From positions 1 to 64,000 of the forward strand of contig JAJPKO010000016.1 in the NCBI GenBank assembly GCA_021323655.1: a stretch of DNA of 64,000 nt, given 5' to 3'. The notes below the pieces were generated by a model. The model worked only from the letters and a program-made list of their open reading frames with translations. It searched no databases and was not told the origin of the DNA. Position numbers and translations under genes: made by a program. Source of the stretch: Acidobacteriaceae bacterium. Its GTDB lineage: Bacteria; Acidobacteriota; Terriglobia; Terriglobales; Acidobacteriaceae. Below, in pieces: positions 4,279 through 56,164 of the stretch (position 1 is its first letter; each line of letters opens with the position of its first letter).

Positions 4279-7200
4279 TTACCAGATGAGTTTCATGGCC
4301 ACCTGCACAATCCGGCCCGGTGCTGCAGAGCCTATCACACCAAAGTTAGACGCATAGACCGCATTGCTCGGGTTTCCGAAGTTAGTATGATTGAACGCAT
4401 TAAAAAATTCTCCCCGTGTCTGCCATCTCACACGATCACCTAAAGGAATAGACTTGAACAAAGAAAAATCGAGGTTTGCGAATCCGGGGCCGCGCAAAAG
4501 ATCCCGGCTGGAGTTCCCGAAATATCCCATAGGCGGATTTACGAAAGCAGCAGTATTGAACCATTCATTGATTGATTTATGAAACCCTGATGGATAGGGA
4601 TCACCCACGATATTGGCCCGCTGCCCAAAATTTCGGTTGATAAAACCTACATCGAAGCCAGCAATCGAGAACGGTTGTCCGGTATGGAGATCCAGAATAC
4701 CGTTCGCCTGCCAGCCCCCAATCAACAAGTCGAGAAACCTGTTTGTGTTGTTGCCAAAAGCCTGCCCCCTGCCGAACGGAAGCTGATACAGGAAGTTGCC
4801 CACAAACCGATGTTTGATGTCAAAACTGGAAGTCGCATAGTCCAATGCCCAGTTATATTGGTTCATCGGACCATTTCCAGATGTATCCCCATTGATTCCG
4901 GCATTGCTCGATTTATTGTCCAGGCTGTGAGACCAAGTGTATGAAGCCAGGAAAGTAATTGAGCGCCCGCTGTGTTCGGCTTTAAGGGCCAATGCATTGT
5001 AGTTTGAAGCGAACTCAAACGGATGACCGAGGACGTCCCCAATATTTGGAAGCGGAATTCGCTCAGAAACCGGTGTTGGATGTAAAGGATCGTACGGATA
5101 GGGCGCATTTTCCCATGCGCGACCCGTTAGATGATGCGCCTCAGAGCCAAGATAATCCGCTTCGAACTTGACCCCCTTGACTTCGCGCTCTACTGAAGCT
5201 GTCCACATGGACACATATGGAGGTATGTACTTGTCCATTGCCCAGACAAAGCCCAGATCGGCTGATGTCACAGGTGCATGCGGGACCGGGGCGGGAAACA
5301 ACGTGCTGGTATTAACATAGTAGTGAACTGATTGCTCGGCGAAGGGGTACGAGCCGCCCGCAAAAGATTCCTTGATCTGGGTATTGTCATAGAACAGGCC
5401 CCAGCCAACGCGCAACACTGTAGTTTCACTAGCAGATGGGCGAAATGCGAGCCCGATCCTTGGGGCAAAAACCTTCCATTGCTGAGGTCCTGGTGCCGAA
5501 CTATACTCGTATAGCTTACCGCCATAGCCTTCCTGGATGACTTTCTTGCTTGCCGTATAGAGACCGCCGCCAGGTATGTTCGGATTGAGCCAGAACATAT
5601 TGTCATTGGTTGAATAGGGCAATGGCATGAAATCCCACCGCAATCCTAGATTAAGAGTAAGGCGCGGACTGACCTTCCAGTCATCCTGAATCCATGGCGC
5701 GATACGTGCAATTACAAAGTTCTGCACGTTTGCGCTTTCAACTTTGGTTGAAAATTCTGTAGGGACTTGGGAATTCGCATAAGATGGCCATCCCAACAGG
5801 AAATCAGCAACAGGGTTCCCACTCACAGTACCATCAAAGGAGAACTTGGGTGAAGAAAAGGAATTATCGCGCGTCTCAACGTGCTGAAAATCTATACCAA
5901 TCCCAATGTTATGATTTTTTTTCGCGATGGACAGCGTATCGGAAAACTCATAGCTGGGCTGATCATACAGCATCGGCGAGTATCCGGGCCCTCCAACCGT
6001 GGAGTAGCCGAGCACTGTGATCTGCGGAAATGTAGTATACCGGCTGCTATATGGAAACACGTTTTTGAAGCCAATTGCATTCCATGCTGATTCAGATATT
6101 GGAACGCCTTTCGAGCTCACGTTTTCCTGCATCCAGCCAAATAGTGCTTGATTCAGAATCGTAGGACTGAACATGTGCGTATATGAACCCACGACCTGTC
6201 GGCTGGGTTCGTCCAGATACGTTGTCCCTTCAGGGAGGACGCCAGGTTGCGCCACGTTGTATTCGGTCTGCGTGTATCGCGCAAAGAACTTGTCTCTATC
6301 GCTGAACGACTGGTCAAACCGATAGGTCTGTTGATCTGCATTCTGCGGAATCAGCACAGTATAGAGATAATTTCCCTGAGAAGCATTAACATTAGGAGCT
6401 GGAAAGTGAGAGATGGAGCTGATTGCAAACTGCGAAAAATCGCTCCGAGGGATTGTATTGTTTGGATAGGGCATATGGGTGGTCGGATTGATAATGGTGG
6501 TATGAAACACACCATTGATCTGTTCCGGAGTCGGAACCACCGCAAACTGATTAAAAGAGGCGCGGGCACGCAAGCCTTCGTAATTGGCAAAGAAAAACGA
6601 CCTATTCCTACCATCATACAGTTTGGGGATCCATATAGGCCCACCTAAACTGTAGCCGAATTGGTTCTGCCTGAGCAGCGTCTTCGGTTGCGGTGGTTGG
6701 ACAAACTGATAAGTATATGCATCGAGTGCATCATTACGAAGGTAGTCATAAGCTGTTCCGTGGAGCTCGTTGGTGCCTGATTTTGTAGTTAGATTAACTT
6801 GATTAGCACCGCCGCCATAAGCAGCAGAATAGCCTTTGGTTTGTTCTTGAAACTCCTGCAGAACCTCTACTGATGGGACTACTGCAGGCGTTGAATACAT
6901 CAGGTCGTTAATAGCGATTCCGTCGAGCGTGTACCGGTTCGAGTCGGGGCGGCCACCCTGAATACTGATTGCATTTCCTTCGTTACCTCTGTAAATTCCC
7001 TGTTCTCCGCTGTTGGAACTCGCACCGGCTTCTAGGGTAAGCAACTGCGTAAAGTTGCGTCCATTCAGAGGAAGATCGGAGATCTGCTGTTGCCTGATCA
7101 CCTGCCCCACAGCAGCATTTTCCGTATCCAGGGACACAGCTGTGGCATTTACGCTTACTGTTTCGGAGACACTACCTGGACGGAGATGCACGTCAACTGT

Positions 7201-9152: not shown

Positions 9153-11573
9153 TTAGTATGCTGTGGCGGCACCACGGAGCAGAAATCCGCCTAATCGTAG
9201 GAGACCGTATCCAGCAGCCGCGACAGCTTCTTCAGGCGCCAGCACGATCGCACCTACCACCACGGCCGCACCAACCCCTACTCCTATGGCCACATTCCGC
9301 AGTGTATGGTCTTCCTGACCTTCAGGTTGACGCGCAGGAACAGTCTGCGGCTCTGGCACTCTTTGCTTCTCAGGGCAACCGCATTCCTGAGGGCTTAGAT
9401 GTTCAAGTTGAGCATTGGAACCCGCGATCCGCCTATATTCATCATCTTGTTCTCGGTCAAGTGGTTGCGGAGGGAATTTGATCTCTACAACAGAGCGTAG
9501 GTTGTCTTGGGTCGGTGGCAGGTTGGGGTTGTTTACAATCACTGCGTCGGGCCGTCGCATCATGCCTTTACCAGGTATGAAGTCTGGGACCTTTTGTCCT
9601 GGATATTTGTTCCAGGGGTGCGGACGAGTCGAATTGTCGTTCACCATGATCGGCGTGGGTGGCTCGGTCGTCATGTTGTAGCTGACTTCAGATTTGATGG
9701 TGCTGCGGTGGCCTGAAGCAGCATCCATAGCCTCGAGTTTTGCTGAGACGCACTGCTGTTTTAACTGAGCGCCGCTGGCCGACAGCGGCGCGCTCTGGTT
9801 GCACTCGCAAATAGTCTTGCAAATCACTGCGCGCTCGGCGGCAGTCATTCCGGGGCCGCCTGTACCGGCGCTTGCCGGCATTACTTGTGCGCCTGCGCTC
9901 GATGGCTGGTATACCGCAGGAACAATGGCGGGTGTTGATAATGGTGGAGATGCGGTGGTTGTTCCAGCGCCAACACCACCCCCGCCTGCACCCACTTCCT
10001 TCGACTGCAGCTTGCTTTGCAGGTGGATTCGGCCCTTCGGGGCAGCGAGGATGATGTCGCCGTCGGTGTGCAGCACCACAGCCGGGCGGCCCGTTTCGTT
10101 GGTCTTCTCCGTCATCACCAGCCGGTTGCTCTTTGGCGTCGCCATAGCAATGGTTTCCTGCCCAGAGGTGTCTACCAGCGTGACGCGATGGCCGGACTTC
10201 GTCACCAGACGCTTGATGTTGTTTGGTGCAAACTCACCGCCGTTCGTACCGCCTTCCCAGTAACCGCTCGTCGGCGGCTGAAGCACTCCGTTCCACACCG
10301 AACCAAGAATGTAAGGCCGCTCGGGGTCGGCTTCTTCAAAGCGCACCGCCACCTCATCGCCCACTTCCGGCGTGATGAGCACGCCGCGCCCTGCTCCGGC
10401 ATGGCTGGTGATCAAACGCGCCCAGGTCGTCGCGTTCTCTTCCTGCCAGTAGAACTGCACCTGTACCCGGCCCAGGTTCTGTGGGTCGTGGTTGGCCACC
10501 ACGCGCGCAGGAAAGACGCCTTCGGCCTGCGGACGCGCGGGGCGTTCGGGTGCAAACCAGCGCCGGGCCGTCGTGGCACGGAAGCGGTTCTCAAAGCCGC
10601 GCGGCGTCCACTGATGCAGGCACTCGATTACGCCATAGGTGCCATCCACGTCCGCATCCAGGCCGGAAATGGTGACTTCATTCCCAGCCATTACTTCAGG
10701 CGAGCGGCTGATGCCGGAACAGATGCCGGCATTTACCGCCTGGCGACGCGATTCTTTTTGTAACTGTTGCTGATACGAATCGAGCGTGGTGGCGCGATGG
10801 CGCTCCGCCACCGTTGCTGCGGAAATGCTTTCTCCCGCAGAGAGGGCCTTTCCGCGCAGGCCGCTCCAGGGAGCGTAGAAGGCCGCTTCGCTTTTGACTC
10901 CGGCGTAGCTCCGGCTCTGCGCGGCGCGGTGGTCGTAGTGCGCCCCGGATTGCAGCACCGGACGCACGTGCCCGCTGCCGGAGAACTCCATCAGCCCGTA
11001 CTCGCCCTCGCGCCACTCGAGCGTTGGGCCGGGCTGGAAGCTGGTCTGGGTTTCAAGGCCGTCCTGCGTGGGGCGCAGCCAGGCCTCGCCGTCATCTACA
11101 AGACGCAGTAGAAAGCTCCAGTCGCTCTCGCTCCACTGCACGCGCGAAAGGCCCGCATCGCCCTCAATGGAGCCTTTGAGCGAGAGGCCGTAATTTGCGG
11201 CCAGCGTTTGCGCAATGGCGGAGGGCGACTGCTTGAGGAAGTATGCGTGGCGCTGGGACTGGTCCATGAGCCAACTTGCGCTGATGGCACCAATGTGCGC
11301 GCCGTAGCTGCCGTTGACTTCGTAAATCAGCTCAACGTCGCGCACCGGGCCGCTGAACAGAGTGTGCTCTACGCCGAGAAGGTCGTAGCCGGAAATGGTG
11401 AGTGCCTGGCCCAGCATCTGCGCCACGTCGGGCTGCGTGTCATGCGTGGAGCGGAAGAGCACGCGCGCAGTCCAGTGATCATTGAGTTTCTGCCGGACCT
11501 CGACTTCGGCCAGCAGCGCGAGGTCAATATCTTCTCCGCCAATCTGTACGTGTATGTAGCCAGCGTTCGGCAC
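9153..11573 (-). CDS. vgrG: VgrG spike with C-terminal VRR-Nuc-like nuclease (evolved VgrG)
   Basis: An 806-residue T6SS spike (TssI). GTG 11573 is chosen as start because GGAG lies seven bases upstream and the protein then begins with the usual beta strand (NAGYIHVQIGGEDI); a TTG at 11606 is possible. Residues 1 to about 510 form the gp27/gp5-like body (QPGPTLEWREGEY; FPARVVANHDPQNLGRVQVQ; WARLITSHAG; GDEVAVRFEEADPERPYILG; SGQETIAMATPKSNRLVMTE). After a Gly-rich linker comes a Cys-containing region and then RRPDAVIV (Asp about 676) and VVEIKF (Glu about 697, Lys about 699) followed by a Gln-containing helix (REQDDEY). This PD...ExK...Q order fits a VRR-Nuc/PD-(D/E)xK DNase. A hydrophobic stretch near 760-790 may help target-membrane passage. 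The partner immunity gene follows immediately. Confidence 0.88.
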   Translation of the reverse strand: MPNAGYIHVQIGGEDIDLALLAEVEVRQKLNDHWTARVLFRSTHDTQPDVAQMLGQALTISGYDLLGVEHTLFSGPVRDVELIYEVNGSYGAHIGAISASWLMDQSQRHAYFLKQSPSAIAQTLAANYGLSLKGSIEGDAGLSRVQWSESDWSFLLRLVDDGEAWLRPTQDGLETQTSFQPGPTLEWREGEYGLMEFSGSGHVRPVLQSGAHYDHRAAQSRSYAGVKSEAAFYAPWSGLRGKALSAGESISAATVAERHRATTLDSYQQQLQKESRRQAVNAGICSGISRSPEVMAGNEVTISGLDADVDGTYGVIECLHQWTPRGFENRFRATTARRWFAPERPARPQAEGVFPARVVANHDPQNLGRVQVQFYWQEENATTWARLITSHAGAGRGVLITPEVGDEVAVRFEEADPERPYILGSVWNGVLQPPTSGYWEGGTNGGEFAPNNIKRLVTKSGHRVTLVDTSGQETIAMATPKSNRLVMTEKTNETGRPAVVLHTDGDIILAAPKGRIHLQSKLQSKEVGAGGGGVGAGTTTASPPLSTPAIVPAVYQPSSAGAQVMPASAGTGGPGMTAAERAVICKTICECNQSAPLSASGAQLKQQCVSAKLEAMDAASGHRSTIKSEVSYNMTTEPPTPIMVNDNSTRPHPWNKYPGQKVPDFIPGKGMMRRPDAVIVNNPNLPPTQDNLRSVVEIKFPPQPLDREQDDEYRRIAGSNAQLEHLSPQECGCPEKQRVPEPQTVPARQPEGQEDHTLRNVAIGVGVGAAVVVGAIVLAPEEAVAAAGYGLLRLGGFLLRGAATAY

Positions 11574-49442: not shown

Positions 49443-51104
49443 TCACATCACAGAATGCTTCACCGGCTTCTCTTCCGTACCTGAGCGTGTCTTTTTTAGT
49501 TCGTCACTGAGTAAAATTGCCTCTGCGATTTCGCGCATGGATTTGCGCCGCTGGCGGCTTTCGCGCTGCATCATGCGATAGGCTTCATCTTCTGTAATAC
49601 CAAGATCACGCTGCAGAATTCCCTTGGCGCGGTCAACCGTGATGCGCGCTTCCAACCTGTCAGAGAGTTCTTCATTCTCGCCTTCAAGCCTTGCCCGTTC
49701 GATTTCAGCGCCCACCAGAAAACCGAGCATAGAGAGCAATCTGACTTCATTGGAAGTGTGATGATACGGCTTCCGGTGCTGGAGCGTAATGACCCCTACT
49801 ACTTTGCTTGCGCACAAAACAGGCACGCAGAGAATGGCCTCAAAATAATCTTCCGGCAAATTCTGGAAAACCTGAAAGCGCGGGTCTTGCGATGCTTTGG
49901 AGGCAATCGCAACTGGTTCACGATGCTGGGCCACCCATCCTGTAATGCCTTGCCCAAGACGCACATCAAGCCTGTCCACCACGTCCGCATGAGGATTTTT
50001 TGAGGCGCGCAGGACCAGCTTGTCTTGCTCCAGCACATAGATGAAGCATGAATCGCACGGAATGACGCTCGAGACAAAATCAACAATGCGGTCGAGCACA
50101 GCATGCAATGCGTCAGCAGAAGCAATGCGGCTGCTGATTTCATGTAGAAATTCAAAAGCAGCAAGGCCATCGCGAAAACCTGCCATTGCAGGCGTGGAAC
50201 GGGCGACGCGTGGAACAGGCTGCATCTGCAAAGTGGATGGACCAATATTGGGCGTTTCTTTATTGCGTTTTTCTTCGAGCAGCCGCCCCGCATACTGCGC
50301 GGCTTCATTTACCAGAAAACCCATTTTCGGGTGTGAAGGCTCAAAATTCGGAGTAATACCGTAATGCCGCAGCTCCTCTGATGTAGTCGGCCCAATGGAA
50401 ATCACCGCGGTGGATTGCAGTCCACGCCGCAGCTCTTCCACGTATTTCATCTGTTCAGCAACCTGAAAAAGATGGATCACCTGAACAGCTGTCATGAAAA
50501 GCGCGACATCCACATTTCCATTGGCAATACCCAGCACGCACTCGCGCAGAGGTTGTAGATCATCTGGCAGCGCCCATTGGTAGACAGGGACTTTCGCGAC
50601 TTCCTTGCTTCTTTCTGTCAGTCCGGTAAGAAGTTCCGGATTCGATGCTCCATATTCCTGTACAGCCACGCGGAATTGCCTGAGGGAATCTCCAAATGTT
50701 GCATCAAGTGATGAAAGCACCTCGCGCCATGTGCATGGCTCAGGGGCGGAAACTGTAATCGGCACTTTGAATTCTTTTAAAACGCCGGATGGCTTGGGGC
50801 CACGGCAAGCAATCCTGACTTCGCGAAGAGCATTCAAAAAAGATTCGCGATCATATCTGGTTTCAACAACATTCAACAGCGTCCGGATGCCGACACCGGT
50901 AAGAAAGACCACCAGATCAAAGTCCCGGTGCAGGAGGCGGTCGGCAAATTCAAATGCCTGTTTGTTAGAAAAGGCGGGAACCTCGCGCATTGAGGGTACG
51001 ACTATCGGATCGCCATCATAGGTGCGAATGAGTTTGGCAACCTCAGCGGCACGGCGTGACTCAAGCGACAGGACCCGTAGTCCATTGAAGCTTGCGTGCG
51101 CCAT
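49443..51104 (-). CDS. Uroporphyrinogen-III synthase fused to GAF and ANTAR domains
   Basis: A 553-residue fusion. Residues 1 to about 275 are a HemD domain (LRVLSLESRRAAEVAKLIRTYDGDP; DLVVFLTGVGIRTLL; VALFMTAVQVIHLFQVAEQ; AVISIGPTTSEELRHYGITP), which makes the precursor of sirohaem. About 320-475 is a GAF domain (LHEISSRIASADALHAVLDRIVDFV ... ILCVPVLCASKVVGVITLQHR). About 478-540 is ANTAR (LSDRLEARITVDRAKGILQRDLGITEDEAYRMMQRESRQ), a three-helix RNA-binding antiterminator module as in NasR and AmiR. AGGAGG six bases before ATG 51104 fixes the start. It is divergent from the sirohaem-dependent reductase genes; one protein may thus join cofactor supply to RNA-level control of that operon. Confidence 0.88.
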   Translation of the reverse strand: MAHASFNGLRVLSLESRRAAEVAKLIRTYDGDPIVVPSMREVPAFSNKQAFEFADRLLHRDFDLVVFLTGVGIRTLLNVVETRYDRESFLNALREVRIACRGPKPSGVLKEFKVPITVSAPEPCTWREVLSSLDATFGDSLRQFRVAVQEYGASNPELLTGLTERSKEVAKVPVYQWALPDDLQPLRECVLGIANGNVDVALFMTAVQVIHLFQVAEQMKYVEELRRGLQSTAVISIGPTTSEELRHYGITPNFEPSHPKMGFLVNEAAQYAGRLLEEKRNKETPNIGPSTLQMQPVPRVARSTPAMAGFRDGLAAFEFLHEISSRIASADALHAVLDRIVDFVSSVIPCDSCFIYVLEQDKLVLRASKNPHADVVDRLDVRLGQGITGWVAQHREPVAIASKASQDPRFQVFQNLPEDYFEAILCVPVLCASKVVGVITLQHRKPYHHTSNEVRLLSMLGFLVGAEIERARLEGENEELSDRLEARITVDRAKGILQRDLGITEDEAYRMMQRESRQRRKSMREIAEAILLSDELKKTRSGTEEKPVKHSVM

Positions 51105-51442
51105 GGATGTCCTCCTGGGGCTTACTCACAAGCGGCATGCCATGGCCGCCTGGTTATTTCTATCTTTGCATGAATCGTCATTTGGGCAACTTGAAATTGA
51201 ATTTGTTTATTGCATCCATAAAAGTCTCTTCATTTGCGGGTTTGACGCGGGATTGCGATTGAAATCGCGATTGGCCCATGGTATTGCTCAATAAAAGCAA
51301 CAGCCCCAAAGGGCACCACGTTGTGTCCACTGTTTGCGTTCCTGTTGTGATCTCTCCTGCTCTCCGTTGAGCAATCCAGACAAGACAATCTCGGTTTCGC
51401 GCTGCTGCGCCGCCGTATGCGTGTATCAATTTTCGGAATTCC
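51105..51442. other. Intergenic between hemD fusion and truncated porin
   Basis: About 340 bases with no intact gene. It must contain the promoter of the HemD-GAF-ANTAR gene. The in-frame open segment before the porin homology (from 51371) does not look like a signal peptide, so the normal porin 5' end has been replaced by unrelated DNA. Possible decayed remains of nitrate-transport or reductase genes were looked for and not recognised. Confidence 0.4.
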
Positions 51443-52354
51443 GACCAGGAGGACCTCAATGGACTATATGGCAACTGGGACATCACAGCATTCGCTGCAC
51501 GCGCCGATCAGGGTGTCTTCAATATGAATGGCAATCCTGAATTGAATGTTGATGTCCAGTATCTTGCATTCACGCAGTCTGTGGCAAAACGGCATGTTCT
51601 GTGGCGTGCTTTTGCTCTTGGTTATCACGATGGGCGGACAGGCATTACAAAGACCGACAACCGGGCGCTCGCAGTTCGCGCGACAGATCATAACAACATC
51701 CGCGTTGGCACATATGGAGGAGACCTGCTTGCAGCCGTTCCTGCCGGGAGCGGCCAACTCGACTTTCTCTTCTGGGGGGCGGTGCAGAACGGAAGCTGGG
51801 GCAAACTTGACCACAACGCAAATGCAGTCGCCCTCGAAGGCGGATACAAATTCAGCAAAGCTGCGCCGTCCCCGTGGTTTCGTGCCGGTTGGTTTCGCGC
51901 GAGCGGTGATAACAACGCGACAGACAACAAACACGGCACATTCTTCCAGGTTCTGCCTACGCCGCGCATTTACGCCCGCATGCCTTTCTACAACCTGATG
52001 AACAGCACCGACACATTCATCCAGGTCGCGGAAAAGCCTGTAGGGAAGCTCGCCCTCCGCGCCGATCTGCACTGGCTGCAACTTACTTCGAGAAAAGACC
52101 TGTGGTACGCAGGCGGTGGCGCATATGACAACAAAGTGTTTGGCTATCAGGGACGTCCGGCCAACGGCAATACATCATTGGCGTCGCTGGCCGACATCAG
52201 CGCAGATTGGCAGACTACAAAGAATGTTGCGCTGAACCTTTATTACGCGCACACATGGGGCAAGCAGGTCATAGAAAAAATTTATCCATCCAATCACGAT
52301 GCTCAATACGGCTATGCGGAATTGGTATATCGCTTCGATGTGGAGCAGAGATGA
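51443..52354 (+). pseudogene. 5'-truncated alginate-export-type outer-membrane porin
   Basis: The frame from 51443 (DQEDLNGLYGNWDITAFAA) to the stop carries about 303 residues of an AlgE-like alginate_exp family beta-barrel (typical length about 450), with the barrel pattern FRAGWFRASGDNNATDNKHGTF and a C-terminal YGYAELVYRFDVEQR. There is no signal peptide and no start codon with an SD before the homology; the first ATG (51524) lies inside it. Without export signal it should be non-functional, hence pseudogene. Related porins accompany nitrate-assimilation genes in acidobacteria and planctomycetes, consistent with the reductase genes downstream. Confidence 0.7.
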
Positions 52355-52446
52355 GCAAAGAAATAATGAGAAAAATTGTTTCTTTCACCGCCTCTTATCT
52401 TGCTTCAGAAAAAGAGCCGAAGTATGATCAGAGCAATTAAGCCGCC

Positions 52447-52506
52447 TGACACCACGCCGTGTCATGGCAGAAATTCCTCAACAATTTATCGCGCTCCATG
52501 AAGAGC
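52447..52506 (+). promoter_or_regulatory. Two hexaloop hairpins in the nirA leader, candidate ANTAR target
   Basis: Hairpin 1: TGACAC (52447-52452), loop CACGCC, GTGTCA (52459-52464). Hairpin 2: GCTC (52493-52496), loop CATGAA, GAGC (52503-52506). Both loops are six bases with G at position 4, as in ANTAR two-hexaloop RNA targets, but position 1 is C instead of the usual A, and stem 2 is only four pairs. They lie about 60-120 bases ahead of the reductase start. Confidence 0.35.
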
Positions 52507-52565
52507 TTTGAGACGGCTGTTCGATTCAGCGAATGCACATCCATCTCCAGACAAGGATTTCTGTC

Positions 52566-54344
52566 ATGGCAACACAAGTGTTTACCAATGCGGCGGATTT
52601 CACAGAAGAGCAGAAGTATTATCTGCAAGGCTTCTTTGCTGGAATTACACAGCGCGGCAAGTTCCCATATGTTGGGCACACCGGATCGGGGCTGATTACG
52701 CATGATCCTGCAACGGGTGGAGTGAACCAGGCTGCGAAGGCAAAAGAAGAAACTTACCTTGGTACTCCTGTCTCTGATCTATGCAGGGAAGAGCGCTTAA
52801 AGTACGAGGAAAATCCGCTCGATATATGGGACAAAATTCTCGCGCACGCGAATGAAAACCGAGCTCCTTCCGGCGGAGATGTCTTCCGCTTCAAATTCCA
52901 CGGCCTGTTTTATGCAGCGCCTGCGCAAGACTCGTTTATGCTGCGTCTGCGCATTCCTGGGTGCATTCTCAGGTCGCACCAGATGCGCGGTCTTGCGCAG
53001 ATGGCACAGGAGTGGGGATCAGGGTGCGCTGACATCACCACGCGCGGCAATTTACAAATTCGCGAGTTTCAGCCAAAGGACATTGTTCGTGTTCTGACAA
53101 AGCTGCAAACGCTGGGTCTTACTTCACGGGGATCGGGCGCAGACAATATCCGCAACGTCACCGCATCGCCGCTCACAGGAATTGATCCTGATGAGTTATA
53201 TAATGTGGCCCCGCTTGCCGAAGCGCTGCACTTCTACATCCTTAACTCGCGCGACCTTTATAGGCTTCCGCGCAAGTTTAACGTTGCGTTTGATAATGGC
53301 GGATCGCTCAGTGTGCTCGCTGACACAAACGATATTGGCTTCATCGCTACAAAAGTAGAGGAAGGGCACGACATTCCCGCGGGAATCTACTTCCGTGTGC
53401 TTCTCTGCGGAATTACGGGACACAAGCAGTTTGCAACAGATTGCGGGCTGCTTCTGACTCCCGACCAGACGGTGGCTGTGGCTGCTGCAATGATTCGCGT
53501 CTTCTCTGAAAATGGAGACCGCACTGACCGTAAAAAGGCGCGGTTGAAATATCTCGTAGACCGCTGGGGTGTCCAAAAATTTCTTGGAGAGACTGAAAAA
53601 CGGCTGGCCTTTCCGCTGCTCCGTTTTCCTGTAGAAAAATGCGTTCCCCATAGACCGATAGACCGCGCAGGGCACATCGGTCTGCATCCACAGCGCCAGC
53701 CAGGAATGCACTACATCGGTGTTTCGGTTCCCGCAGGCAGGTTGCCGGTGGACCAGATGATTGCAATCGCCGATATTGCTGAACGTTTCGGTTCAGGCGA
53801 AATGCGGCTCACGGTTTGGCAGAACCTCATCGTTCCTGACATTGCAACAGAAAACCTTGAGGCCGCAACGGAGGCAATCCTCAGCGCAGGATTAAAGATC
53901 AGTGCGGGTACAGTCATGCGCGGCACTGTTGCATGCACGGGCAACAAAGGCTGTCGCTATGCTGCTACGGACACAAAGCGGCATGCAGTTGAACTGGCCA
54001 CGTTTCTCGATGAGCGCTTTGTTATAGATCAGCCCGTGAACCTGCATGTCACTGGATGCCCGCATTCCTGCGCCCAGCACTATATCGGTGACATCGGTCT
54101 GCTTGGAGCAAAAGTAGAAGGGGAAGAAGGCTACCAGGTAGTGATTGGCGGCGGCGCAGATGATGGACAGGGGATTGCGCGCGAATTGGTTCCCTCTATC
54201 AAAGCCACCGAATTATCGCCGGTAATGGAGCGGCTCTTTGCCGCATATATAAAAAGCCGCGAGCCAGCAGAATCGTTTCTCTCCTTCACTCGCCGACATG
54301 ACATTGTAACTCTCAAATCATTCTGCATGGAAAAGGCGGTTTAA
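52566..54344 (+). CDS. nirA: Sirohaem [4Fe-4S] nitrite (or sulfite) reductase, NirA family
   Basis: A 592-residue assimilatory reductase that reduces nitrite to ammonium (or sulfite to sulfide) with six electrons. ATG 52566 has AAGGA eight bases upstream. The two half-modules with ferredoxin-like folds show FRFKFHGLFYAAPAQDSFMLRLRIPGC and HIGLHPQRQPGMHYIGVSVPAGRL. The sirohaem/4Fe-4S ligands are VACTGNKGCRYAATDTK (C-x5-C) and HVTGCPHSCAQHYIGDIG (C-x3-C), the latter closer to nitrite reductases. The neighbouring diflavin protein would be electron donor, starting 5 bases after the stop. Choosing nitrite over sulfite rests on this motif and the ANTAR/HemD regulator nearby; no nitrate reductase or transporter gene is present in the window. 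Confidence 0.85.
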   Translation: MATQVFTNAADFTEEQKYYLQGFFAGITQRGKFPYVGHTGSGLITHDPATGGVNQAAKAKEETYLGTPVSDLCREERLKYEENPLDIWDKILAHANENRAPSGGDVFRFKFHGLFYAAPAQDSFMLRLRIPGCILRSHQMRGLAQMAQEWGSGCADITTRGNLQIREFQPKDIVRVLTKLQTLGLTSRGSGADNIRNVTASPLTGIDPDELYNVAPLAEALHFYILNSRDLYRLPRKFNVAFDNGGSLSVLADTNDIGFIATKVEEGHDIPAGIYFRVLLCGITGHKQFATDCGLLLTPDQTVAVAAAMIRVFSENGDRTDRKKARLKYLVDRWGVQKFLGETEKRLAFPLLRFPVEKCVPHRPIDRAGHIGLHPQRQPGMHYIGVSVPAGRLPVDQMIAIADIAERFGSGEMRLTVWQNLIVPDIATENLEAATEAILSAGLKISAGTVMRGTVACTGNKGCRYAATDTKRHAVELATFLDERFVIDQPVNLHVTGCPHSCAQHYIGDIGLLGAKVEGEEGYQVVIGGGADDGQGIARELVPSIKATELSPVMERLFAAYIKSREPAESFLSFTRRHDIVTLKSFCMEKAV

Positions 54345-54349
54345 CAGAG

Positions 54350-56164
54350 ATGTCGCAGATGGTCCCATTTGTTCCCAATGACGCTCCTTTTTCAAAGGAA
54401 CAACGTGCATGGTTAAATGGCTTTCTGGCTGGGGTATTTTCAAGCACGCCAGCGCCTGAGTTCGCAGCCAAGCCGGCTCCGCTGAAGATTGCCGTCTTCT
54501 ACGCTTCACAAACCGGCACAGCGGAAGGCCTTGCGCGCAAGCTCACAAAAGAACTCAAGGCCAAAGGGTATGATGCGACGGCGATTTCGCTTGAAGCCTA
54601 CACATCAGCAGCCCTGGCATCAGAACGCCACGCCATCTTTATCGCCAGCACTTATGGCCAGGGAGAAGCGCCCGATTCTGCGCAATTTTTCTATGAGCAG
54701 GTATGCGTGGAGCACTTTCCGCGTTATGAAAATCTGCAATACGCAGTTTTTGCGCTTGGAGACCGTCATTATGAGACATTCTGCAAATTTGGCATTGATC
54801 TCGATAACAAGCTCGCATCGCTTGGCGCCACGCGCATATTGGATCGCATCGAATGCGATGTAGATATTGATGGTCCTTTTGGGCGCTGGAAAGAAGAATT
54901 ATTCGGACGCCTGAGAGCCATAGCCAAAGGCGAATGCGGGACATCTGCAATAAGTTCTTCAGATGCATCTGAACTAGCGCCTGCTATGCCTTCCTCTGTT
55001 GCGATGGCCTCTGCGGTGCCTGCGCAGGAACCATCCGCGGCAGTGACGCGCGACCATCCCTATTTTGCGCCACTTGTGGAAAAGCGACCTCTTACCCGTG
55101 ATGGATCTACGAAGCTCACATTACATCTCACGTGGTCTATTGCAGGATCAGGAATCAAATACGAAGCAGGAGATGCCTGCGGCATCATTCCACAAAATGA
55201 TCCAGCATTAGTAGATGACATCCTGAATAGTCTGCAGTTTGCCGGGAAGGAACAGGTGGAAATCCCGAGGGCCGGAATAGTCCCCTTGCAGGAAGCGCTG
55301 CGGCATCATCTGGTCATCACAAAGCTGAACCGTAAGCTCATCGAGCGCTACGCGACCATGGGTCAATGCAAGCGGCTGCTCAGCCTGCTGGCGCCGGAAC
55401 AACAGGCGCACCTTGAGAAATATATTTACGAGCGCGGATTCGTAGACATTCTCGAAGCATGTCCGGGGGTCATTCATGACCCGTCCGATCTTGTTGGAAT
55501 GCTGCCAAAGCTCACGCCACGGCTATATTCCATCTCTTCAAGCCCATCGGTACACGCCGGTGAGGTACATACCACCATTGCCGTGGTCCGCTATCGCTCG
55601 TTAAATCGCGAGCGCGGGGGCGTATGCTCAACGCTCGTTGCAGATCGCGTTCCCGTGGGCGAGCGCCTACCGATTTACATTCAGCCAAACAAGAAATTTC
55701 GTTTGCCGAAAAATCCAGACACCCCAGTCATCATGATTGGTCCCGGCACTGGCATTGCTCCATTTCGCGCGTTTCTTCATGAACGCCGTGCGGCGGGAGC
55801 AAAGGGCCGCAACTGGCTCTTCTTCGGCGAGAGAAATTCAGCGAATGATTTCCTCTACCGGGAAGAACTGGAAGACATGGTTGCCGATGGTCATCTTACA
55901 CATCTTGATACGGCCTTTTCGCGGGACCAGGAGCACAAAATCTACGTACAGGACAGAATGCTGGAACAAGGGCCCATGTTCTGGTCATGGCTTCAGGATG
56001 GCGCAAGTATCTATGTTTGCGGCGATGCCTCCCGTATGGCAAAAGATGTGGACGCTGCTCTGCACACAATCGTTGCAAAGCAAGGCCATATGGATAATGA
56101 CGCTGCCAAAGAGTACGTTCTGCGCCTGAAAGATGATCACCGCTATCACCGCGACGTGTATTAG
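54350..56164 (+). CDS. Diflavin reductase (CysJ-like), electron donor to NirA
   Basis: A 604-residue protein with an FMN flavodoxin domain (AVFYASQTGTAEGLARKLTKEL, about 50-190; IASTYGQGEAPDSA), an Ala/Ser linker (about 205-235), a connecting and FAD domain (RLYSISSSPSVHAGEVHTTIAVVRY; RGGVCSTLVADR) and an NADPH domain (MIGPGTGIAPFRAFLHERR; WLFFGERN; IYVCGDASRMAKDVDAALHTIV), ending in DVY. It is organised like the CysJ flavoprotein of sulfite reductase. The 5-base gap indicates an operon with nirA. The N terminus starts with a helix-rich segment (SKEQRAWLNGFLAGVF), which resembles the start of NirA (EEQKYYLQGFFAGIT) and may be a docking element. Confidence 0.9.
   Translation: MSQMVPFVPNDAPFSKEQRAWLNGFLAGVFSSTPAPEFAAKPAPLKIAVFYASQTGTAEGLARKLTKELKAKGYDATAISLEAYTSAALASERHAIFIASTYGQGEAPDSAQFFYEQVCVEHFPRYENLQYAVFALGDRHYETFCKFGIDLDNKLASLGATRILDRIECDVDIDGPFGRWKEELFGRLRAIAKGECGTSAISSSDASELAPAMPSSVAMASAVPAQEPSAAVTRDHPYFAPLVEKRPLTRDGSTKLTLHLTWSIAGSGIKYEAGDACGIIPQNDPALVDDILNSLQFAGKEQVEIPRAGIVPLQEALRHHLVITKLNRKLIERYATMGQCKRLLSLLAPEQQAHLEKYIYERGFVDILEACPGVIHDPSDLVGMLPKLTPRLYSISSSPSVHAGEVHTTIAVVRYRSLNRERGGVCSTLVADRVPVGERLPIYIQPNKKFRLPKNPDTPVIMIGPGTGIAPFRAFLHERRAAGAKGRNWLFFGERNSANDFLYREELEDMVADGHLTHLDTAFSRDQEHKIYVQDRMLEQGPMFWSWLQDGASIYVCGDASRMAKDVDAALHTIVAKQGHMDNDAAKEYVLRLKDDHRYHRDVY

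Follow-up and report, generated by a model that had tools for sequence, protein, structure and literature searches.

The protein encoded at positions 49443–51104 (reverse strand) of the window, the whole 64,000-nucleotide stretch of Acidobacteriaceae DNA analysed here, joins HemD, GAF and ANTAR domains and is probably a one-component RNA-binding regulator of nitrite and nitrate assimilation, predicted to turn on genes whose leaders carry hexaloop hairpins of a C1/G4 type. What we observed are its domains, its linkage to these genes, a conserved paired RNA element in their leaders and the genome-wide specificity of that element.

The fusion protein, its distribution and its neighbours

The fusion is a single open reading frame of 553 residues. 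Pfam profiles place the HemD (HEM4) domain at residues 21–265 (50310–51044, E = 6.7e-32), the GAF domain at residues 333–468 (49701–50108, E = 5.8e-17), with a CDxC motif at C350-D-S-C353, and the ANTAR domain at residues 478–531 (49512–49673, E = 3.4e-17), all on the reverse strand. Each match exceeds its curated cut-off (62.4 bits against 27.3 for ANTAR, the only ANTAR match in the window genome), and the HemD–GAF–ANTAR fusion read by the original prediction thus holds in one frame. The AlphaFold model has a mean pLDDT of 76.6, with HemD mostly above 90, ANTAR at about 90 and a poor GAF core. Its top PDB match in Foldseek is the Thermus thermophilus uroporphyrinogen-III synthase (1wd7, E = 6.5e-16), followed by further HemD structures and also PtsP-type GAF domains, so profile and predicted structure agree that the HemD fold is present.

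Within the window's family, an Acidobacteriaceae lineage, the HemD piece was matched in 83 of 300 genomes, and from their open frames we sorted these into 59 fusions, 22 stand-alone proteins and two short remnants. A chance or assembly-derived fusion was considered and rejected, since the fusion recurs in 59 of the 300 genomes. In three of the 59 (G017, G100 and G271) it is in pieces; in G017, of the same genus, the frame near position 9574 of the locus (L129) runs through HemD and GAF to residue 437 with ANTAR in another frame, reflecting either a broken gene or a sequencing error. In a set of 297 genomes from across the phylum, the fusion was confined to the window's family, with both halves present outside it as separate genes in four genomes (G468, G558, G469 and G479). 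When named genomes were scanned, only Acidobacteriaceae, among them Terriglobus, Edaphobacter, Bryocella and Paracidobacterium, gave the fusion at full length. Many relatives encode GAF-ANTAR as a separate protein of ~240 residues, including 15 of the 22 genomes with a stand-alone HemD, and G145, G091 and G204 have the two genes on one strand, no more than ~2.5 kb apart. This co-occurrence suggests that the fusion united two proteins that already travelled together.

Divergent from the fusion in the window lie nirA (52533–54344, forward strand), a NirA-family reductase gene (NF007126, 822 bits against a cut-off of 523) likely to start at 52566 behind AAGGA, and a CysJ-like flavoprotein gene (54350–56164, forward strand), whose product is the likely electron donor to NirA. 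Reductases of the NirA family use sirohaem; the sirohaem-requiring neighbour of the original prediction is identified as NirA by its profile. Both genes are preceded by a leader and by the remnant of an Alginate_exp-type porin gene (51524–52354, forward strand), which lacks ~190 N-terminal residues relative to the L129 ortholog. Having lost its front part but kept an ANTAR-type leader (51310–51372), this porin gene looks like a pseudogene in the making.

We fetched 42 fusion loci, and the conservation near nirA that had been proposed as a check on the fusion was evident: nirA is nearby in 32 and nirB in two, with neither in the fetched stretch of eight. The 32 nirA-bearing loci also hold cysJ-like genes (29), molybdopterin, nitrate reductase-like genes (27) and a porin of one of two types (18), the usual order being the fusion, then divergent nirA, cysJ, an Fe/S protein gene and the molybdopterin reductase gene, with an occasional MFS transporter, formate/nitrite transporter or tetrapyrrole methylase. 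Three loci (L143, L151 and L154) carry second fusion copies in their genomes. In a sample of 120 genomes, which are related and not independent, all 12 with a NirA over cut-off have a fusion within 5 kb, and nirA over cut-off occurs in 12 of the 17 fusion genomes vs none of the 103 others.

The window organism, a soil acidobacterium, carries no close copy of its relatives' nitrate reductase; the top match has 32% identity and starts just past the window end (C34:64654–66705), and the same comparison in G017, G118 and G097 gave 65–67%. Given this and the lost porin front, the regulator appears to persist here with nitrite reduction alone, which would count against a signal made by the relatives' nitrate reductase.

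A paired hexaloop element in nirA leaders

The candidate ANTAR target in the nirA leader, defined by alignment and covariance model, spans 52446–52506 on the forward strand. It comprises hairpin P1 (52447–52464, loop CACGCC) and, after a 28-nt linker, hairpin P2 (52493–52506, loop CATGAA). A second candidate, before the porin remnant, lies on the same strand at 51310–51372 (P1 loop CACGTT, P2 loop TCCGTT).

The P2 hairpin, GCUC-CNNGNN-GAGC, was found in the nirA leaders of 40 of 42 nirA loci, representing 36 distinct leaders, with a search pattern that fixed only the CUC/GAG stem bases. L142 has one outer-stem mismatch, and the two loci lacking P2 (L040 and L169) are copies of one broken locus in which nirA itself is broken. 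All 36 distinct leaders have C1 and G4 in the P2 loop, while positions 2, 3, 5 and 6 vary. We parsed P1 by eye in 31 of the 42 loci, 23–56 nt upstream of P2, with a C..G loop in mind, so that only the P1 stem counts as independent evidence. In several leaders (L134, L136, L140 and L041) P1 is unclear or longer-looped, and some P1 loops have 7 nt.

For alignment A1 we kept 26 of the 31 leaders, omitting near copies (L033, L137) and three leaders with a 9-nt loop, a U1 loop and a 56-nt linker (L039, L160 and L141). Standard pairs fill 90% of its paired cells, a level reached by none of 500 shuffles (mean 83.2). In P1, both bases vary at five of the six pairs; pairing is lost when the partner is slid along, and the closing C:G pair is present in all 26 leaders in P1 and P2 alike. 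The P2 stem is invariant and by itself therefore shows no covariation. The RNA singled out by the original prediction, at 52447–52506, is accordingly a conserved two-hairpin candidate ANTAR target, and related leaders carry it too. We found no relevant Rfam family for the leader, and none of the four sources scanned yielded a match to Rfam.

Genome-wide searches used a full model (R1) and a leave-out model (R2) built from 18 other leaders, with the window and its nearest kin excluded; alignment A2, of 18 leaders, omits those of the window, L125, L126 and L129 and any whose P1 loop has 7 nt. In the 4.59-Mb window genome R2 ranked the nirA leader first (E = 5.2e-6) and the porin-leader site second (E = 0.067, not significant on its own); R1 gave 6.4e-11 and 0.0027, respectively. 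Of 120 genomes searched, all 13 with a site at E ≤ 1.2e-4 have the fusion, although most of the genomes that R1 picked out had already contributed to its training and the independent evidence comes from R2, G058 and G067. In the last two, which are among the 13 and not in the model, the element stands ahead of nirB, which encodes a nitrite reductase of unrelated type, and in G067 it is placed between a porin gene and nirB. Just below the 13 rank G043, which lacks the fusion (9.9e-4), and G034, which has it (0.0011). Weaker sites stand in front of porins, genes for nitrate reductase, an MFS transporter and also the fusion gene. Linkage and a conserved candidate target in the nirA leader together argue that the nirA operon has an ANTAR regulator of its own, as had been predicted.

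Several further leaders carry related elements. The MFS-transporter leaders of L149 and L153 have a similar loop on a different stem (gaac/guuc). In L175, a nirB leader near a split GAF-ANTAR gene holds a candidate pair (4819–4866, R1 E = 0.28) with an A1/G4 hexaloop in P1 and another hexaloop of the C1/G4 type, which may represent an intermediate loop code, and we found no convincing hairpin pair in the leaders searched at the split loci L193 and L042. Leaders with two C1/G4 hexaloop hairpins of another stem sequence occur in L168 (8700–9129, reverse strand), before a large gene that runs divergently from a stand-alone GAF-ANTAR gene, and in L170 (6900–7080, forward strand); we read these as a second ANTAR regulon in these bacteria.

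Proposed sensing and control

Known ANTAR proteins recognise a pair of hexaloop hairpins that are closed by C:G and carry A1 and G4, according to the available text of three sources (PMC3369931, PMC7496416, PMC8164766). Because the layout, the closing pair and G4 of the leaders agree with these targets, we infer that the fusion's ANTAR domain binds and activates them. In the mechanism we propose, the N-terminal HemD-like domain, probably with GAF, would sense a tetrapyrrole-pathway or nitrogen-oxide signal, for which the candidates are a tetrapyrrole held by HemD, nitrite or nitrate, and a redox or metal state read through the GAF CDxC. This ligand or state would expose the C-terminal ANTAR domain, and an ANTAR dimer would bind the two C1/G4 hairpins of the nirA–cysJ leader, acting also on leaders of the porin, nitrate reductase and transporters, and of nirB in relatives. 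Bound leaders would then turn on nirA–cysJ and the neighbouring nitrite and nitrate genes. RNA binding, the dimer, the ligand and activation as the direction are all predictions from sequence. More tentatively, the state of the tetrapyrrole pathway (hydroxymethylbilane, uroporphyrinogen III or sirohaem) may be what gates ANTAR binding to the C1/G4 leaders.

How binding would act on expression may differ between leaders. We looked for a classical terminator after P2 with two scripts. The first gave a mean of 16.0 vs 14.3, with 22 of 33 leaders above their own shuffles; the second, for the third hairpin, gave 12.6 vs 10.4 expected (Wilcoxon p = 0.0013), for related leaders and shuffles that kept base composition only. 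The signal of both was weak overall. The third hairpin is modestly enriched and does not overlap P2, and T tracts are few and weak, with a T-rich stretch in ten or so leaders; leaders of the L127/L128 type combine the hairpin with a T tract. The third hairpin and T-rich stretch of some leaders are compatible with antitermination, which is somewhat likelier in the relatives. In the window's own nirA leader we found no clear intrinsic terminator and no U tract after the third hairpin, and in this short leader release of a helix over the nirA Shine-Dalgarno sequence and start codon is equally plausible. Control of translation in general, with the P1 3′ arm and linker covering the Shine-Dalgarno sequence and AUG until the ANTAR dimer locks P1 and frees them, is on the unlikely side. 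The covering helix is found in the minimum-energy folds of the window, L129 and L125 leaders, and the window leader has a fold z-score of −2.54, both compatible with such control, but these are only three related leaders, and most others are longer, with a third hairpin downstream of P2, ahead of the gene.

The HemD domain belongs to a lineage apart from the housekeeping enzyme. HEM4 matches two proteins of the window genome, the fusion with 113.5 bits and, at C27, a canonical HemD with 213.4 bits. Of 41 family genomes tested, 40 encode a canonical HemD, the window's included. For a tree we took, in list order, 17 of the 52 fusion rows and 14 of the 30 loci with canonical HemD, together with other HemD proteins; it placed all canonical HemD on one side (100/100) and, opposite, the fusions, free HemD, NnaR, Deinococcus HemD encoded after nirBD, and HemD–HemE fusions. 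The last of these indicate that this side is not purely regulatory. The free HemD of G019 falls within a well-supported fusion set; a single origin of the fusion, which would need one change on the tree, was not adopted, at a support of only 69/76.

Since the fusion genomes checked keep an ordinary HemD and the HemD of the comparable regulator NnaR is described as inactive as an enzyme in Streptomyces coelicolor (available text of PMC6277429 and PMC11162112), a sensor role for the fused HemD is more likely than that of a housekeeping enzyme. The same two observations make it improbable that the protein is bifunctional, with uroporphyrinogen-III synthase activity and with RNA binding governed by the catalytic state of the enzyme, substrate-bound or product-bound, even though its top fold match is an enzyme, some relatives have a tetrapyrrole methylase gene (TP_methylase, of the sirohaem/cobalamin type) after the fusion, and its HemD lineage includes biosynthetic-looking HemD–URO-D (HemE) fusions from Nitrospira and from a Myxococcota genome (L049, L051). 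We consider it less probable still that GAF is the sole sensor (for instance of redox state, a metal or NO through CDxC) and HemD a structural or dimerising appendage. Many relatives do have GAF-ANTAR working as a separate protein, and both CDxC cysteines are kept in all 54 fusion rows and all 25 split GAF-ANTAR rows, making a redox or metal site possible; however, HemD residues are also strongly conserved across the 54 fusion rows, and near-identical free HemD proteins lie beside nirB or a nitrite transporter (L042, L193), tying the HemD part to nitrite use in its own right. A HemD-like sensor, probably with GAF, is thus our preferred reading. Of the further suggestion that the fusion could couple sirohaem-precursor synthesis to readthrough of the reductase operon, the regulator of that operon and its conserved candidate target are supported; a sensor role is likelier than an enzyme joined to an antiterminator, and the window leader has no clear intrinsic terminator.

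Relation to known regulators

The fusion is closest in design to NnaR and in output to NasR; it combines both and is a member of neither. NnaR, a HemD domain with a winged helix, is described in the available text as essential for nitrate and nitrite use in mycobacteria (PMC6277429, PMC11162112) and as an architecture restricted to Actinomycetes (PMC11162112). As far as these sources extend, both proteins have an N-terminal HemD joined to a regulatory output, nirB-type nitrite assimilation and a separate true HemD (PMC6277429, PMC11162112), and on inspection of an NnaR locus for comparison (L243) the fusion shares its defining trait, an N-terminal HemD near nitrite reductase genes that is not the genome's only HemD. 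They differ in that the output of NnaR is a DNA-binding OmpR-type winged helix, whereas the fusion has an RNA-binding ANTAR domain and an extra GAF, comes from another phylum and is predicted to act through leader RNA. The stand-alone HemD-like proteins of Deinococcus plasmids (after nirBD) and of split acidobacterial loci share its HemD lineage and nitrite-reductase neighbourhood but are unfused.

NasR, the NIT-ANTAR protein of the Klebsiella nasF leader, is likewise a one-component ANTAR regulator of nitrate and nitrite assimilation, with a two-hairpin hexaloop leader, a C:G closing pair and G4 (available text of PMC7496416). In the fusion its NIT sensor is replaced by HemD-GAF, with no Pfam match to NIT, and the leaders have C1 instead of A1, linkers of 23–56 nt and no clear terminator overlapping P2. 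The targets of EutV, NasT and actinobacterial ANTAR proteins share the dual stem-loops, hexaloops and G4 in the available text (PMC3369931, PMC8164766), but have A1 as the rule, other genes, and proteins that are two-component or partner-controlled. The window's 28-nt linker also exceeds the ~2–25 nt given for known targets in the available text of PMC8164766.

In the openly licensed literature searched, we found no earlier report of the fusion or of an ANTAR protein linked to uroporphyrinogen or its synthase. New here would be the HemD sensor on a one-component ANTAR regulator, a kind otherwise known. The fusion would give HemD-like nitrite regulators a second, independent output, RNA rather than DNA, and this counterpart makes the role of the NnaR HemD domain testable by comparison. 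It also points to an Acidobacteriota ANTAR regulon with a shifted loop code, C1 and not A1, so that searches based on A1/G4 could miss such targets. In the window organism the probable role of the protein is to switch on nitrite use in response to a nitrogen or tetrapyrrole signal. If tetrapyrrole gating is true, NnaR would apply the same sensor idea with a DNA-binding output, and nitrite reductase would be produced only while the cell is able to provide its cofactor.
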